DNA of 64,000 nt from Opitutaceae bacterium. GTDB taxonomy: Bacteria > Verrucomicrobiota > Verrucomicrobiia > Opitutales > Opitutaceae. Positions within the stretch are counted from its first letter, which is position 1, and each line of letters opens with the position of its first letter. The notes beneath the pieces were generated by a model. That model was not told the origin of the DNA. It made no database searches and was given only the letters and a program-made list of their open reading frames with translations. The position numbers and the translations under genes are program-made. Location: contig JANQKV010000005.1 of the NCBI GenBank assembly GCA_028280945.1, positions 62,001 to 126,000 on the forward strand, read 5' to 3'. This document shows, piece after piece, positions 16,345 through 23,878 of the stretch.

Positions 16345-16563
16345 ATGAAAACAGATGCCGAAATGATGGCCGAAATCGTGAAGCGCGTGGGCGATGCCCA
16401 GGCCCGCCAGATGGTCCTCAATGCCTACAATACCGAGATCATTTCCAATCGCCTGAGGCACCTGGAGCACGCGCAGACCAGCGGTCATCTGGCCAAGGCG
16501 CCCACCGACATGATGCACCTCGCGATTGAGCGCGTGTATGAGGTGGTCATGCTCGGCGAATAA
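16345..16563 (+). CDS. Small conserved-looking protein upstream of the deoxyhypusine synthase-like gene
   Basis: 72 residues, mostly alpha-helical, with no signal peptide. It begins MKTDAEMMAEIVKRVGD and ends IERVYEVVMLGE. I do not recognise it. It lies 43 bp before the deoxyhypusine synthase-like gene on the same strand and probably shares its transcript. The reading frame extends further upstream, but the ATG at 16345 falls well clear of the divergent EamA start. Confidence 0.6.
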   Translation: MKTDAEMMAEIVKRVGDAQARQMVLNAYNTEIISNRLRHLEHAQTSGHLAKAPTDMMHLAIERVYEVVMLGE

Positions 16564-16606
16564 TCCGCTGCGCCGCGCCCGCATTTTCGCCTTTGCCCTG
16601 CCTGTC

Positions 16607-17665
16607 ATGCCCGCCAAACCCAAGGCCAAGCGCCAGACCCAACGCCCCGAGGACCTCAACGCCAAGCGCGCTGCCCGCAAGGGTCCGATCTCGAAGTATA
16701 TCGCGCGCCACTACCGGCACTTCAACGCGGCCTCCCTTCTCGATGCCGCCAAGGGTTACGAGGATCACCTGAAGGCGGGCGGCCGGATGATGGTCACCCT
16801 GGCGGGGGCGATGTCGACCGCCGAGCTGGGCATCTCGCTCGCCAACATGATCCGGCGAGGCAAGGTCCACGCCATCGTCTGCACCGGCGCCAACCTCGAG
16901 GAGGACGTTTTTAACCTGGTGGCCCATGACTATTACGAACGGGTGCCGCACTACCGGGATCTGACGGCCAACGATGAGCAGGCGCTGCTCGACCGGCACA
17001 TGAATCGTGTCACCGACACCTGCATCCCGGAGATGGAGGCCATGCGCCGGATTGAAAAAGCCGTGCTGACCGAATGGATGGCGGTGGATGCCGCGGGTGA
17101 AGCCTATTTCCCCCACGAGTTCATGTATCGGTTGCTCCGGTCGGGAGTGCTGGAGAAGTCCTACCAGATTGATCCGGCCTACTCCTGGTTGATGGCGGCG
17201 GCGGAGAAAAACCTGCCCATCATCGTGCCGGGGTGGGAGGACTCGACGCTGGGCAACATGTTTGCCGCGGCGGTCATTCGCGGTGACGTCAAAAACGTGC
17301 ACACGGTCCGCACCGGCATCGAATACATGACGTATTTGGCGGAGTATTACACCAGGACTTCGCGGACGCTCAAAAACGGCGAAGGTTCGATCGGGTTTTT
17401 TCAAATTGGCGGCGGCATCGCGGGCGACTTCCCGATCTGCGTGGTGCCCATGCTACATCAGGACCTCGAGCGCACGGGCGTGCCGTTGTGGGGCTACTTT
17501 TGCCAGATCAGCGATTCCACCACCAGCTACGGCAGCTACAGCGGCGCCGTGCCGAACGAGAAGATCACCTGGGGCAAACTCGCTGCTTCGACGCCCAAGT
17601 TCATCGTCGAAAGCGACGCCACCATCGTCGCCCCGTTGATCTTCAGTTGGGTTCTTGGTGAATAG
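16607..17665 (+). CDS. Deoxyhypusine synthase-like protein lacking the catalytic lysine
   Basis: 352 residues of the deoxyhypusine synthase fold (NAD-binding, spermidine-using in eukaryotes and archaea). Family signals include VTLAGAMSTAELG, a CTGANLEED loop, the VPGWEDSTLGNMF segment and the closing WGKL. In true DHS the lysine that carries the butylimine follows a GGG turn (GGGVVKHH in human). Here the aligned position in GGGIAGDFP is Gly273, so canonical deoxyhypusine chemistry is unlikely. Bacterial relatives are of uncertain function and may act on polyamines. Start is the ATG before PAKPKAKR. Confidence 0.78.
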   Translation: MPAKPKAKRQTQRPEDLNAKRAARKGPISKYIARHYRHFNAASLLDAAKGYEDHLKAGGRMMVTLAGAMSTAELGISLANMIRRGKVHAIVCTGANLEEDVFNLVAHDYYERVPHYRDLTANDEQALLDRHMNRVTDTCIPEMEAMRRIEKAVLTEWMAVDAAGEAYFPHEFMYRLLRSGVLEKSYQIDPAYSWLMAAAEKNLPIIVPGWEDSTLGNMFAAAVIRGDVKNVHTVRTGIEYMTYLAEYYTRTSRTLKNGEGSIGFFQIGGGIAGDFPICVVPMLHQDLERTGVPLWGYFCQISDSTTSYGSYSGAVPNEKITWGKLAASTPKFIVESDATIVAPLIFSWVLGE

Positions 17666-18347: not shown

Positions 18348-19433
18348 ATGCAAAAGACCTTCCAAGTTGGCTCCAAAACCTTCGTCCTCGACCAAGAAAA
18401 AGCGGAGGCAGCGTTTGCTGCGAAAAAGGTCATCAATGGGCGCGAGTCGATGACCTTCAACCTGCTCCCGCTCAAGTATCAGTGGGCGTATGAGCTCTAT
18501 CGCACCATGAAGGCCAACCATTGGGAGCCGGAGGATATCCCGATGGGCAAGGACATCGAACAGTGGCGCGACGAGCGGGTGGTCACCGACCAAGAGCGTT
18601 GGATCATACGCATGGGGATCGGCTACTTTTCCGCCGCCGAGGGCATCGTGGGCGACAACATCCAGCACGTCATCCGTGAGTTGGTCACCGCCCCCGAGCT
18701 CAAGCTGGTTCTCGGCCGCCACGCCCACGAGGAGAACATTCACGCCGATTCGCTGCTCTACATGATTTCCTCGCTTGGCATCAACCCGCACGAGTGCGAG
18801 GCGATGTTTGAGGACGTCGATACGATCGTGAGGAAAAACGAGTTTGTGACCCGCATCTCCAAGGGTCTGCGCCGCGACCTCGACCTCACCCAGCCGGAGA
18901 ACAAGAAGCTGTTTGCGAAGAACATGTTCATCTTCGGCCAGTGCATGGAGGGTACCCAGTTTTACGGCCTGTTCGGCATGGTCCTTTCCCTTTATCGCCA
19001 GAACAAGTTTCCCGGCATCGGCCAGATGTTCCGCTACACCCTGCGCGACGAGTCGAACCACATCGAACTGCTGCGCAACCTGTTCATGGACCTCGTCGAA
19101 GAGAACCGCGAAATCTGGACCGAGGACTTCAAGGAGAACCTGCGTTCGACCATGGCGGAGGGCGTCCAACTCGAGAAGGACTTCATTCGCGACTGCCTGC
19201 CGGTGAACGCCGTCGGCCTCGTGCTTGAGGATTTCCTGACCTACATCGATTACATCGCCGACCGCCGCCTCGAAGGCTGCGGCCTCGCGCCGCTCAACCC
19301 GGGCATTCAAAACCCGCTGCCGTGGCTCGCCGAGATGATGGACATCAAGAAGGAGCAGAACTTCTTCGAAGGCCGCGTCACCGAATACCAGAAGTCCTCC
19401 GCGCTCGAAGTAGCCGACGACGACGACCTCTGA
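18348..19433 (+). CDS. nrdB: Class I ribonucleotide reductase small subunit, subclass Ic-like (no radical Tyr)
   Basis: 361 residues, ferritin-like R2 fold. The metal ligands are Glu98 (AAEGIVGDN), Glu129 and His132 (EENIHADS), Glu201 (QCMEGTQF), and Glu235 and His238 (RDESNHIE). Four residues after His132, where the radical Tyr sits in class Ia (E. coli Y122), there is Leu136. The first ligand is Glu instead of Asp. Both traits match subclass Ic, the chlamydial type that uses a Mn/Fe centre instead of a tyrosyl radical. It pairs with nrdA downstream. The ATG at 18348 is preferred over an in-frame TTG six bases earlier. Confidence 0.92.
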   Translation: MQKTFQVGSKTFVLDQEKAEAAFAAKKVINGRESMTFNLLPLKYQWAYELYRTMKANHWEPEDIPMGKDIEQWRDERVVTDQERWIIRMGIGYFSAAEGIVGDNIQHVIRELVTAPELKLVLGRHAHEENIHADSLLYMISSLGINPHECEAMFEDVDTIVRKNEFVTRISKGLRRDLDLTQPENKKLFAKNMFIFGQCMEGTQFYGLFGMVLSLYRQNKFPGIGQMFRYTLRDESNHIELLRNLFMDLVEENREIWTEDFKENLRSTMAEGVQLEKDFIRDCLPVNAVGLVLEDFLTYIDYIADRRLEGCGLAPLNPGIQNPLPWLAEMMDIKKEQNFFEGRVTEYQKSSALEVADDDDL

Positions 19434-19746: not shown

Positions 19747-22700
19747 ATGAATCCTTCGCTCGCCCACGACCTCGCCCTCAAAGCCGCCACCCACACCCCG
19801 TTTGACGATCGTCCGTCCTACGCCTGGCAGGAGTGCGTGCCGCCGGACACCCCGATGCTGCCCACCATCAAGCTGCTGTCGCCCACCGGTGAGTCCGAGT
19901 TCGATCTGGGCGAGATCGCGCTGACGGTTGGCAACGCCATCACCAACGTTCACCTCGCCCGCGGCGAAAAGGGCAACATCTTCTCCCCCGAGTCGAAGCA
20001 GTTTGTCGGCACCATCGTGAAGGAAGTCGCCGCCAACCTCGCCACCCAGGCCCTCAAGACGTCCCCGCTGAAGGTCTCCCTCAACGACCTCTACGAGCTT
20101 ATCGAGAAGACCCTCGTTGACAACAACGCCTACGACGTCGCCAAGAGCCTGCTCCTTAACCGCTCCCGCAAGCTCGCCGCCGGCGCCGGCGGCCGGCATG
20201 CCACCTCCGGCGTGCGCGTCATCCGCCGCTCCAACCACGTTGTGCCCTACATCGATCAGAAGGTGGAGATCGCCGTGCGCAAATCCTTCCTCTCCCTGCA
20301 GCAGGATTCCGCTCCTGCCGTGGAGGTGACCAAGGCCGTCACCTCCCGCGTGCTCGGCTCCAAGCAGTCCTTCATCCACATCGAGGAGATCCAGGACATC
20401 GTGCAGGAAGAGCTCATGAAGGCCGGCCACTTTAAGGTCGCCGAGGCCTACATCCTCTACCGTGCCCTGCGCAACGAGCACCGCGATCAGTCCAACGACA
20501 ACGACGAAGGCGATGAGGCCGCCCTGCGCGAAGTCGCCGCGAAGGCCCAGCCGTCGATGATCATGGTCAAGCAGACCGACGGCACCAACAAGCTGTGGGA
20601 CCGCGAGGACCTCAAGAAGCGCATCGAATACGCCTCCATCGGCCTCGACCTCTGCCTCGAGCCCGAGGAAATAGAAGTGGAGCTCCTTCGCTCGGTTTTC
20701 GACGAAATCTCCCAAAAGGACCTCGATTCGACCATCATCCTCAACTCCAAGACCCTCATCGAGAAGGACGCCGATTTTTCGAAGTTCTCCGGCCGCATCC
20801 AGCTCACCTACATCTACCAGGAAGTGCTCGACTGGGACATCGTTGCCGACGGTGTTGGCAAGCTGAAGGAGTTCCACCAGAAGGCGTTTAAGAAGCACCT
20901 TGACTACGGCGCCGAGATCAAGCGCATCAATCCCAAGATCCTCGACTACGATCTTGACCGCCTCTCCGAAGCTCTCGATCCGTCCGCCGACCTCGATCTG
21001 GACTTCCTCGGCGTCCAGACCCTCTACGATCGCTACCTGATCATCGACAAGACCGGCGCCAAGCCCCGCCGCCTCGAGACCCCGCAACTCTTCTGGATGC
21101 GCGTCTCCATGGGCCTCTTCCACGCCGAGGAGGGCGATCGCGAGGAACGTGTCCTCTCGCTCTACCGCCTCTACAAGAGCCGCCGCTTCTGCAGCTCCAC
21201 GCCGACCCTGTTCAACTCCGGCACGCTGCACTCCCAGCTCTCCTCCTGCTACCTATACTACGTCGACGACTCCCTCGAGGGCATCATGTATCGCGGCATC
21301 GCCGAGAACGCCCAGCTCTCCAAGTGGGCCGGTGGCCTTGGCGGCTCCTGGTCGGCTGTGCGCGGCACGGGCGCCCACATTGCCGGCACCAACGGTGAAT
21401 CCCAGGGTGTCATCCCCTTTCTCAAGCTCCACAACGACCAGCTCGTCGCTGTCAACCAGGGCGGCAAGCGCAAGGGCTCCGGCTGCGCCTATATCGAGTC
21501 CTGGCACAACGACATCTACGAGTTTCTCGAGCTGCGGAAGAACACCGGGGACGACCGTCGCCGCACCCACGACATGAACACGGCCAACTGGATTCCCGAC
21601 CTGTTCATGAAGCGCATGGAAGCCCGCGATGACTGGACCCTCTTCCGCTCCAACGAAGCCCCCGACCTGCACGACCTCTACGGCAGGAAGTTCGAGGAAG
21701 CCTACCTGCGTTACGAGAAGATGGCCGAGGAAGGCAAAATCCAGGGTCAGAAGATCAAGGCCCTCGAGCTATGGAAGAAGATGCTCTCCATGCTCTTTGA
21801 GACCGGGCACCCGTGGATCACCTTCAAGGACGCCTGCAACATCCGTTCCCCGCAGGACCACGTCGGCGTGGTGCACTCCTCCAACCTCTGCACGGAGATC
21901 ACCCTCAACACCTCCAACGACGAGACGGCGGTCTGCAACCTCGGGTCGGTCATCATCGAGAACCACCTCACCCCCGAAGGTGAGATCGACCACGAGAAGC
22001 TGAAGGAGACCATCACCACCGCCATTCGGGCGCTGGACAACGTCATCGACATCAACTTCTACCCGACCAAGGCCGCGGAAACGTCCAACCGCCGCCACCG
22101 ACCCATTGGCATGGGGGTCATGGGCCTGGCCAACGCGCTCTACCGCAAAGGCATCGCCTTTGCGTCCGAGGAAGCCGTGGAGTTCAACGACGAAATGATG
22201 GAGGCCATCGCCTACCACGCCTACGAAGCCTCGTCCGACCTCGCCGCCGAGCGTGGCACCTACTCGAGCTACAAAGGCTCCAAGTGGGACCGCGGCCTGC
22301 TGCCGCCCGACACCGTGGACCTGCTCGAGCAGGAGCGCGGCGTGAGTGTCGAGGTGCCCCGCGGGGGCAAGATGGACTGGGCCCCGCTGCGCGAGAAGAT
22401 TGCCAAGCAAGGCATGCGCAATTCCAACGTGCTGGCCATCGCGCCCACGGCGACGATTTCCAACATCACCGGCACCAGCCCCTGCATCGAGCCGGGTTAC
22501 AAGAACCTCTTCGTGAAGAGCAACCTGTCGGGTGACTTCACCGTGCTCAACCAGCACCTCGTCCGAGACCTCAAGGCCCGCAACCTGTGGGATCAGGACA
22601 TGATCGACAACCTGAAGTATTTCGATGGGGAGCTGAAGGACATCGCCCGCATCCCGGATGACCTGAAGGAGAAGTATCGCACGGCCTTTGGCATCGACCA

Positions 22701-23007
22701 CAAGTGGGTGATCGACGCAGCCGCCCGCCGCCAGAAGTGGATCGACCAGTCACAAAGCGTGAATCTCTGGCTGGCCACCCCGGACCTGAAGACCCTGAGC
22801 CACATGTATCGCCACGCCTGGCACACCGGCCTCAAGACCACCTACTACCTCCGCACCCTAGGCGCCTCCAACATCGAGAAGGCCACCGTAGCGGTGAAGA
22901 AGGAGATGCGTGGAGAGACCGCAAAGAAGGAATACACCGCCGCCGAAAAAGCCGCATGCAGCATCGAAGCGATGCGAAATGGTGAGGAGTGTGAAGCGTG
23001 CCAATAA
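19747..23007 (+). CDS. nrdA: Class I ribonucleotide reductase large subunit with three ATP cones
   Basis: 1086 residues, far longer than E. coli NrdA (761). The extra N-terminus holds three ATP-cone allosteric domains, at about 40-140, 157-243 and 282-370. The catalytic barrel has SSCYLYYVDDSLE (first redox Cys region), then SNLCTEI with Asn713, Cys715 and Glu717 as the radical site, and AVCNLGS as the partner Cys. The C-terminus ends CEACQ, giving the Cys1082/Cys1085 pair used for re-reduction. The ATG (MNPSLAHDL) is chosen because the frame upstream is low-complexity. The chlamydial enzymes are likewise enlarged. Confidence 0.93.
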   Translation: MNPSLAHDLALKAATHTPFDDRPSYAWQECVPPDTPMLPTIKLLSPTGESEFDLGEIALTVGNAITNVHLARGEKGNIFSPESKQFVGTIVKEVAANLATQALKTSPLKVSLNDLYELIEKTLVDNNAYDVAKSLLLNRSRKLAAGAGGRHATSGVRVIRRSNHVVPYIDQKVEIAVRKSFLSLQQDSAPAVEVTKAVTSRVLGSKQSFIHIEEIQDIVQEELMKAGHFKVAEAYILYRALRNEHRDQSNDNDEGDEAALREVAAKAQPSMIMVKQTDGTNKLWDREDLKKRIEYASIGLDLCLEPEEIEVELLRSVFDEISQKDLDSTIILNSKTLIEKDADFSKFSGRIQLTYIYQEVLDWDIVADGVGKLKEFHQKAFKKHLDYGAEIKRINPKILDYDLDRLSEALDPSADLDLDFLGVQTLYDRYLIIDKTGAKPRRLETPQLFWMRVSMGLFHAEEGDREERVLSLYRLYKSRRFCSSTPTLFNSGTLHSQLSSCYLYYVDDSLEGIMYRGIAENAQLSKWAGGLGGSWSAVRGTGAHIAGTNGESQGVIPFLKLHNDQLVAVNQGGKRKGSGCAYIESWHNDIYEFLELRKNTGDDRRRTHDMNTANWIPDLFMKRMEARDDWTLFRSNEAPDLHDLYGRKFEEAYLRYEKMAEEGKIQGQKIKALELWKKMLSMLFETGHPWITFKDACNIRSPQDHVGVVHSSNLCTEITLNTSNDETAVCNLGSVIIENHLTPEGEIDHEKLKETITTAIRALDNVIDINFYPTKAAETSNRRHRPIGMGVMGLANALYRKGIAFASEEAVEFNDEMMEAIAYHAYEASSDLAAERGTYSSYKGSKWDRGLLPPDTVDLLEQERGVSVEVPRGGKMDWAPLREKIAKQGMRNSNVLAIAPTATISNITGTSPCIEPGYKNLFVKSNLSGDFTVLNQHLVRDLKARNLWDQDMIDNLKYFDGELKDIARIPDDLKEKYRTAFGIDHKWVIDAAARRQKWIDQSQSVNLWLATPDLKTLSHMYRHAWHTGLKTTYYLRTLGASNIEKATVAVKKEMRGETAKKEYTAAEKAACSIEAMRNGEECEACQ

Positions 23008-23038: not shown

Positions 23039-23878
23039 GTGGCTATATCAGTCAGTTTCATAAATATGAAGGGTGGTGTAGGGAAAACGACCCTAGCCAT
23101 GCAAATAGCTTTGGCAGCCTCTCGTGATGGCCATCGTGTTCTTGCTGTAGATTTAGATCCGCAGGCAAACCTAAGCCAATCGCTCCTTGGTCTTCACAAA
23201 TACAAGACCCATATTCGAAAAAACTTACCTTCAGTAGTTCATATTTTTGATGGTTATATTCCACCTTCTGGAGATGGCTACAGTCCGATACCTGCAGATT
23301 TAAAGAAGGTAATACTGAAGAAAGTCGATCTTAAGGGTAATCTTGACCTAATTCCTAGTCGCTTAGAGCTATCAAACGTCCTAAGGAATCCTACTGGTAA
23401 AGAGCGAAAACTTGCCAAATCGCTTTCACGCGTATCAAAGCAGTATGATTTAGTAGTTATTGACTGTGCTCCTACTGACTCAATTCTGACGGATGCCGCA
23501 TATTTCTCCAGTCGTTATATAATAGTCCCTATTAAACCTGAATTTATGGCGACAATTGGCCTCCCTTTGCTGGCCAAGTCTTTAAAGGCGTTTAAACAGG
23601 AAAATGAGGATCATGATATAGATATTGCGGGGATATCGTTTGTTCATTCTTCAAGCTATTCATCAGGACCAGAGGCGGCAGAGTCTATTGAGGATGTTAC
23701 TGCATTTGCCGCTGATCAGGGCTGGAATATATATCCAACAAAAATTAAGTATTCAGCTTCATATGCAAAATCGGCGCGAGAAGGAAAGCCGGTAGATCAG
23801 ACAAGTTATGTCCGGTGGGAAACCACGCTCAACTTTAAGAGAGTCAAAGAACGAGTCTTTGATTCGATTGGACTCTAA
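23039..23878 (+). CDS. ParA/Soj-type deviant Walker ATPase
   Basis: 279 residues, GTG start. The deviant Walker A motif is MKGGVGKTT at 10-18, followed by VLAVDLDPQANLSQSLLG. A switch-type IDCAPT motif lies in the middle, and a KPEFMATIGLP segment follows. ParA ATPases move plasmids, chromosomes or protein cargo along the nucleoid. Base composition is strikingly AT-rich beside nrdA only 31 bp upstream. The next gene is 17 bp away and is the likely partner. No parS-like repeats were seen nearby. Confidence 0.88.
   Translation: MAISVSFINMKGGVGKTTLAMQIALAASRDGHRVLAVDLDPQANLSQSLLGLHKYKTHIRKNLPSVVHIFDGYIPPSGDGYSPIPADLKKVILKKVDLKGNLDLIPSRLELSNVLRNPTGKERKLAKSLSRVSKQYDLVVIDCAPTDSILTDAAYFSSRYIIVPIKPEFMATIGLPLLAKSLKAFKQENEDHDIDIAGISFVHSSSYSSGPEAAESIEDVTAFAADQGWNIYPTKIKYSASYAKSAREGKPVDQTSYVRWETTLNFKRVKERVFDSIGL

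Follow-up and report, generated by a model that had tools for sequence, protein, structure and literature searches.

A Leu-type, Ic-like ribonucleotide reductase small subunit in Opitutaceae and a ligand-less paralogue in related Verrucomicrobiota

We analysed a window of 64,000 nucleotides (the whole stretch of DNA under study) from an Opitutaceae bacterium. Judged by its residues, the NrdB protein encoded in the window is a subclass Ic-like R2 of the NrdB-Leu type and an ordinary member of an under-studied type. Leu136 stands in the place of the class Ia radical tyrosine and Glu98 in the place of the first metal ligand. By analogy with the chlamydial Ic enzyme, we give a probability of about 0.7 to the reading that this class I R2 would rely on a Mn(IV)/Fe(III) cluster, and not on a tyrosine, to store its oxidising equivalent.

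The metal site of the window NrdB

We aligned the window NrdB with the R2 of C. trachomatis (Ct) and with E. coli NrdB. The codons below were placed from this alignment, and the two nrd genes are given with them.

18348..19433, + strand: nrdB, 361-aa Leu-type (Ic-like) class I RNR small subunit
18522..18524, + strand: codon of W59, electron-relay Trp, equivalent to Ct W51
18639..18641, + strand: codon GAG of E98, first metal ligand, Glu for Asp, equivalent to Ct E89
18732..18734, + strand: codon of E129, metal ligand, equivalent to Ct E120
18741..18743, + strand: codon of H132, metal ligand, equivalent to Ct H123
18753..18755, + strand: codon CTG of L136, class Ia radical-Tyr position, equivalent to Ct F127
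18948..18950, + strand: codon of E201, metal ligand, equivalent to Ct E193
19035..19037, + strand: codon of Y230, activation electron relay, equivalent to Ct Y222 (role of Y222 according to PMC4118035)
19050..19052, + strand: codon of E235, metal ligand, equivalent to Ct E227
19059..19061, + strand: codon of H238, metal ligand, equivalent to Ct H230
19386..19388, + strand: codon of Y347, C-terminal intersubunit Tyr, equivalent to Ct Y338
19747..23007, + strand: nrdA, catalytic subunit with the catalytic cysteines and the Tyr dyad (longest open reading frame from 19621)

The nrdB product matched PF00268 in Pfam (1.1e-64) and scored 325 bits in NCBIfam, over the cut-off of 309 bits of an R2 equivalog. 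Its identity to the C. trachomatis R2 is 38.5%. All six metal-ligand positions are filled, and D234 of the electron relay is also present. The earlier note had given the coordinates and residue numbers of nrdB exactly, and both of its central readings were borne out: Leu136, not a tyrosine, aligned with Ct F127 and the E. coli radical Tyr, and Glu98 aligned with Ct E89 and the first-ligand Asp of E. coli. The E. coli positions in this alignment count Met1 and are thus one higher than in the usual Y122 numbering.

We compared the site with the known kinds of R2. The window NrdB has what defines subclass Ic: no radical Tyr, Glu as first ligand with the other ligands kept, an equivalent of Y222, and the C-terminal Tyr. 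It shares the six ligand positions, the W/Y/D relay and the C-terminal Tyr with C. trachomatis R2c (NrdB-Phe) but has Leu136 where that protein has Phe127, and the chlamydial protein lies on a branch separate from the Leu clade. Class Ia, with a radical Tyr and Asp as first ligand, does not accommodate L136 and E98; the E. coli control read Tyr/Asp. Class Ie R2s are atypical like the window NrdB, in that both lack the usual tyrosyl/diiron pair. Class Ie proteins are metal-free and use DOPA, with their metal ligands substituted and a modified Tyr present. The window NrdB, in contrast, keeps all six ligands and has Leu at 136, with no counterpart of the modified Tyr. Class Id, known from Flavobacterium johnsoniae, also has Glu as first ligand but retains the Tyr (PMC8463856), and its Tyr/Glu pair is therefore distinct from Leu/Glu. 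No difference was visible from the NrdB-Leu of RNRdb (2009), in which Leu replaces the radical Tyr and a Mn/Fe centre is assumed (PMC2795772, PMC3267527).

The best PDB sequence matches were C. trachomatis R2 entries (2.5e-76), followed by 6y2n, which also has Glu and Phe. An AlphaFold model of the window NrdB, built from 41 sequences, had a mean pLDDT of 77.2 with weak stretches at residues 27-56 and 333-361. Ct NrdB entries ranked first in a fold search with this model, and the class Ie entry 7mmp came at rank 49. Metal-free Ct entries fitted the model almost equally well, and thus the fold match tells little about the metals.

Predicted cofactor and use of the enzyme

In C. trachomatis, O2 converts Mn(II)/Fe(II) to Mn(IV)/Fe(IV), and one electron delivered via Y222/W51 reduces this to Mn(IV)/Fe(III), which takes the place of the tyrosyl radical (PMC8463856, PMC4118035). 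The residues named for this route are all present in the window NrdB. We predict a Mn/Fe centre because the Ic pair (Glu98 and a redox-inert residue at 136) is found together with the relay residues W59, D234, Y230 and Y347; the metal pair would thereby be carried over to the Leu type from a Phe type of 38.5% identity. In the proposed mechanism, the Mn(IV)/Fe(IV) state would arise when O2 (or peroxide) oxidises Mn(II)/Fe(II), and one electron passing via Y230/W59 would reduce the cluster to Mn(IV)/Fe(III). This state would then draw an electron from the NrdA cysteine via W59, Y347, and the NrdA Tyr dyad. If so, the enzyme would need manganese as well as iron.

The ligand residues alone do not fix the metal, and the oxidant may be metal-centred but homodinuclear (Fe/Fe or Mn/Mn). 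The Mn-Mn class Id likewise has Glu as first ligand, yet it pairs this Glu with a Tyr (PMC8463856), a combination found in no readable sequence of the sampled Verrucomicrobiota. In favour of a homodinuclear centre, the Leu clade lies apart from the Phe type, which is the characterised one. Against it, the relay Tyr that serves Mn/Fe activation in C. trachomatis (PMC4118035) is kept, although a Tyr at 230 is not exclusive to Ic (it is also present in 7 Tyr/Asp Verrucomicrobiota sequences and in 5 named sequences). Taken together, we regard a homodinuclear centre as unlikely, though one to be reckoned with.

It is very improbable that another tyrosine near the metals carries a radical in a class Ia-like manner. 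The window NrdB has 11 tyrosines, but 7 of them are also Tyr in the Ct protein, which is free of a tyrosyl radical. The remaining four (48, 93, 216, and 302) are not Tyr in Ct and could in principle serve. However, E. coli, which stores its radical at Y122, likewise has Tyr at 93 and 302, neither protein has Tyr at 48 or 216, and alignment A1 is invariant at none of these four columns.

The nrdA gene follows nrdB, and we placed its start at 19747 by visual comparison with the N-termini of NrdA reading frames at loci L114 and L116. NrdA residues C543, N755, C757, E759, C772, Y1075, and Y1076 align with E. coli C225, N437, C439, E441, C462, Y730, and Y731. The tail EECEACQ has two cysteines, like the E. 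coli tail; in a loose alignment of the tails, C1113 pairs with E. coli C759 and an Ala with C754. Within the 1128-aa frame, Pfam scored one ATP-cone above its cut-off, at residues 199-286, and the long stretches that flank it resemble further, diverged cones by eye. Of 80 related loci, 75 have nrdA downstream of nrdB and in the same orientation; the other 5 gave no nrdA match, and in three of these fewer than 500 bases follow nrdB. The window nrd genes are flanked upstream by a gene for a deoxyhypusine-synthase-family protein (16526-17665) and downstream by one for a ParA-type ATPase (23039-23878). A scan of the window for NrdR boxes, allowing up to 3 mismatches to a consensus, yielded 4 matches, below the chance mean of 5.64, and none of them near nrdB.

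We searched the window genome (96.45% complete) for other RNRs. The window nrdB was the only class I R2 found, the window nrdA was the only PF02867 match, and no match to a class III RNR was obtained. We had considered nrdA/nrdB as the sole RNR of this genome and dropped the idea, since a class II RTPR-like protein of 720 aa is encoded beyond the window, on contig C32 (L269:1847-4009). This protein scored 253 bits with TIGR02505 (3.9e-75), under the cut-off of 340, and matched the solved class II enzyme 1l1l (3.5e-31); it is weak in PF02867 (30 bits for the whole protein) and surfaced via TIGR02504. The cell may thus not depend on the Leu-type enzyme. Proteins that resemble the class II-like one occur in many of 60 genomes of the window's family. 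Among the 60, 44 have a PF02867 match (a single one in 37), 10 have NrdD (PF13597), and TIGR02505 gave at least one match in 45, in a few cases a weak cross-match on nrdA.

In six Leu-type relatives (G085, G122, G223, G289, G339, and G351), the neighbouring nrdA is the only large subunit detected by PF02867, PF13597, and TIGR02505. The Leu-type enzyme is very likely a working RNR in these relatives because no other RNR large subunit was found there. Two others of the 60 genomes (G551 and G348) gave no match to any of the three profiles, so the searches or the assemblies miss some RNRs. Conservation suggests that the window enzyme, too, is likely a working RNR.

The opposite reading is that the window NrdB is non-functional or repurposed (R2lox-like, for example) and that the class II-like protein makes the deoxynucleotides. 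That protein is indeed encoded elsewhere in the genome, and R2lox proteins also lack the radical Tyr; the resemblance of the window NrdB to them is weak (47 bits in NCBIfam; PDB 7qbk). R2lox is, however, without the C-terminal Tyr and does not pair with NrdA (PMC3824934), whereas the window NrdB keeps Y347, adjoins nrdA, and exceeds the R2 equivalog cut-off (325 vs 309 bits). Leu136 and Glu98 are moreover kept in all 120 listed relatives (the best 120 of 3537), and the six relatives above show no other RNR. We consider a non-functional or repurposed protein the most improbable of all.

Distribution and phylogeny of the Leu type

Leu136 and Glu98 were present in 121 of 121 proteins (the query and the best 120 of 3537 homologues), showing that they are not a slip or chance; one of the 121 has Gln at ligand E201. 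Locus L046:6001-7083 encodes an otherwise intact Leu-type NrdB with Gln at metal-ligand position 201.

We then scored 387 Verrucomicrobiota genomes, 126 with and 261 without a match to the window NrdB, and assigned them to site types by hand. A complete Leu/Glu site was found in 84 of the 387. The other matching genomes had Phe/Glu (13), Tyr/Asp alone (25), Leu/Glu in a frame-broken gene (G330), or the C-terminal part alone (G369 and G349), and one weak match (G143) was left unread. Leu-type R2 is common among the sampled Verrucomicrobiota. It is the commonest R2 found by this query (84/126), a count that leans that way since the query is itself Leu-type. One Opitutaceae genome (G345) carries one Leu/Glu and two Tyr/Asp R2 genes (L117 and L118) and was counted once, as Leu. 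The Leu-type nrdB is broken by a frame change, which may be real or an assembly error, in L134 (G330) and in L206 (G437).

The residues at the two positions were strictly coupled: in the readable intact Verrucomicrobiota sequences, Glu98 was always found with Leu or Phe and Asp98 always with Tyr (this count excludes the frame-broken G437 sequence, in which column 98 borders the break and reads Arg). The same pairing held without exception in 9 named plasmid and phage sequences, fetched from 70 listed records (40 of 387 plasmid and 30 of 1776 phage records). These nine include Phe/Glu plasmid genes of Haladaptatus, Phyllobacterium, and Methylocella. No member of the Leu clade was seen outside Verrucomicrobiota among the best 120 matches of each protein search and the 9 fetched sequences. 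Three MAG contigs titled Akkermansia muciniphila or Rubrivivax (L049, L079, and L017) carry Opitutaceae-like NrdB proteins at 84-85% identity, and their titles or bins are probably wrong; for L017, a 3-kb contig titled Rubrivivax that carries the Leu type, contamination is assumed.

Phe was found in 120 of 120 listed matches (the best 120) to the C. trachomatis R2. The larger of two trees comprised 109 R2s; there the Leu type formed one starred group (99/95) together with the ligand-less paralogues described below, and no Phe or Tyr members fell into it. In a reduced tree of 57 sequences the Leu type was one clade (100/99). The 8 chlamydial R2s in the trees clustered with Phe-type R2s of other Verrucomicrobiota (90/89 in the larger tree, 84/90 in the reduced one). 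Tyr-type R2s of Paraburkholderia and Pseudomonas plasmids were nested within the wider Phe group (98/99). The deep order of the 109-R2 tree is unsafe because of the long branches of E. coli and the phage sequences. The earlier note had called for a tree of R2 proteins and suggested that a tyrosine-free RNR would link this verrucomicrobium to its PVC relatives. This link was recovered for the Phe type, where the chlamydial R2s group with those of other Verrucomicrobiota, but the Leu clade stands apart; forcing Phe and Leu sequences into one clade in the 57-sequence tree gave a p-AU of 0.159, and the joint clade was neither rejected nor shown.

The window protein had also been taken to extend tyrosine-free RNR beyond Chlamydia. 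Its site is indeed tyrosine-free and Ic-like, but the type is not new, as RNRdb denoted tyrosine-free NrdB as NrdBPhe or NrdBLeu in 2009 (PMC2795772). Class Ic has since been described with Phe, Leu, or Val replacing Tyr, NrdB-Val having been added (PMC3267527), and Leu, Ile, and Val are documented in R2c (PMC3824934, citing Hogbom 2010). GenBank held 150 tyrosine-free R2 sequences by 2014 (PMC4118035), and a class Ic RNR has been reconstructed in the chlamydial ancestor (PMC9816063). No purified Leu-type R2 protein was found in the searched portions of the literature. The Leu type is already known as a kind, and here it proves to be common in the sampled Verrucomicrobiota.

A ligand-less paralogue beside the Leu-type gene in relatives

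Among 195 genomes of a related family, 15 carry a second nrdB immediately 5' of, and in the same orientation as, the Leu-type gene.

L116:5302-6516 (genome G378): ligand-less paralogue; further loci at L194-L206 and L160

nrdA follows the two genes in 14 of the 15; in G474 the contig ends first. The Leu-type gene of the pair has a broken frame in G437, and in G474 it is truncated where the contig stops. The best 120 of 1951 matches to the second protein comprised 42 intact Leu types and 78 ligand-less proteins. Among the 78, four of the six metal ligands are lost in 62, five in 15, and three in one. At position 98, 63 carry Gln, 13 carry Gly, one carries Lys, and one retains Glu. In all 78, H132 is replaced by Arg or Gln, E235 by Val, Ile, Ala, or Thr, and H238 by Arg. 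The C-terminal Tyr is present in none (0/78), and 77 have an acidic tail ending in DL or EL, like the window NrdB. Among the matches listed, the ligand-less proteins with a named source come from Persicirhabdus, Rubritalea, Akkermansiaceae, Verrucomicrobiaceae, and Verrucomicrobiae; examples are P0122 (Persicirhabdus sediminis) and P0196 (Rubritalea marina).

We compared the dN/dS of both genes in 12 of the 15 tandem genomes. The three closest pairs gave 0.042-0.075 for the ligand-less gene versus 0.004-0.014 for the intact gene. The ligand-less values reached 0.182 across the 13 pairs with finite dS among the 25 least diverged of 66 pairs, dS being mostly saturated. The paralogue is under purifying selection: it is conserved but relaxed, because its dN/dS is low yet above that of the intact gene. 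The model of the paralogue had a mean pLDDT of 86.8, better than that of the window NrdB, and matched Ct R2 first in the fold search. All 17 ligand-less sequences formed one group (100/100) in the 109-R2 tree, and their place beside the Leu clade may be due to long-branch pull.

In 10 of the 15 tandem genomes, PF02867 and TIGR02505 detected no large subunit other than the neighbouring nrdA. A second PF02867 gene is present in G378, G408, and G420; G401 has its single match on another contig, and G474 has none. The window genome has a single nrdB. Two genomes of the window's own family, Opitutaceae, carry a different tandem nrdB (G116, L114:6447-7529, and G207, L115:5896-6993); the second copy there has all six ligands, Asn for Y230, and a long branch.

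Yeast Rnr4 (beta') is likewise a second R2-like chain beside an intact R2, and it has lost metal ligands. The paralogue follows this pattern, as its ligands are lost and it is encoded beside a Leu-type nrdB in 15/15 genomes. It differs from Rnr4 in being bacterial and in tandem with a tyrosine-free beta, and its substitutions are its own (mostly Q/G at 98, R/Q at 132, V/I/A/T at 235, and R at 238). The eukaryotic beta' is unable to assemble the cofactor (PMC3824934). We tentatively suggest, from these sequence features, that the relatives may possess a two-gene R2 in which a metal-bearing beta and a ligand-less beta' without the C-terminal Tyr, arranged beta'-beta-nrdA, would form an obligate heterodimer; on balance we remain doubtful. 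Most sampled Leu-type genomes are without the paralogue, a point against the heterodimer. So is the loss of the C-terminal Tyr, because of which the paralogue could not pass a radical itself, and it could instead be a regulator or decoy of NrdA. None of the papers listed by the literature searches described a ligand-less bacterial paralogue in its title or abstract.

According to a published hypothesis, R2c helps pathogens and extremophiles to cope with NO and oxidants (PMC4118035). The Leu type, with 84 of 387 Verrucomicrobiota genomes, has no obvious fit to this hypothesis. Leu-type bacteria could be used to test the purpose of the tyrosine-free site and whether Leu behaves like Phe. The paralogue raises a testable question of its own: is there a heterodimeric bacterial R2 with one metal site per dimer? 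If so, yeast Rnr2/Rnr4 would have a counterpart in bacteria that evolved independently and stores its radical on metals alone.
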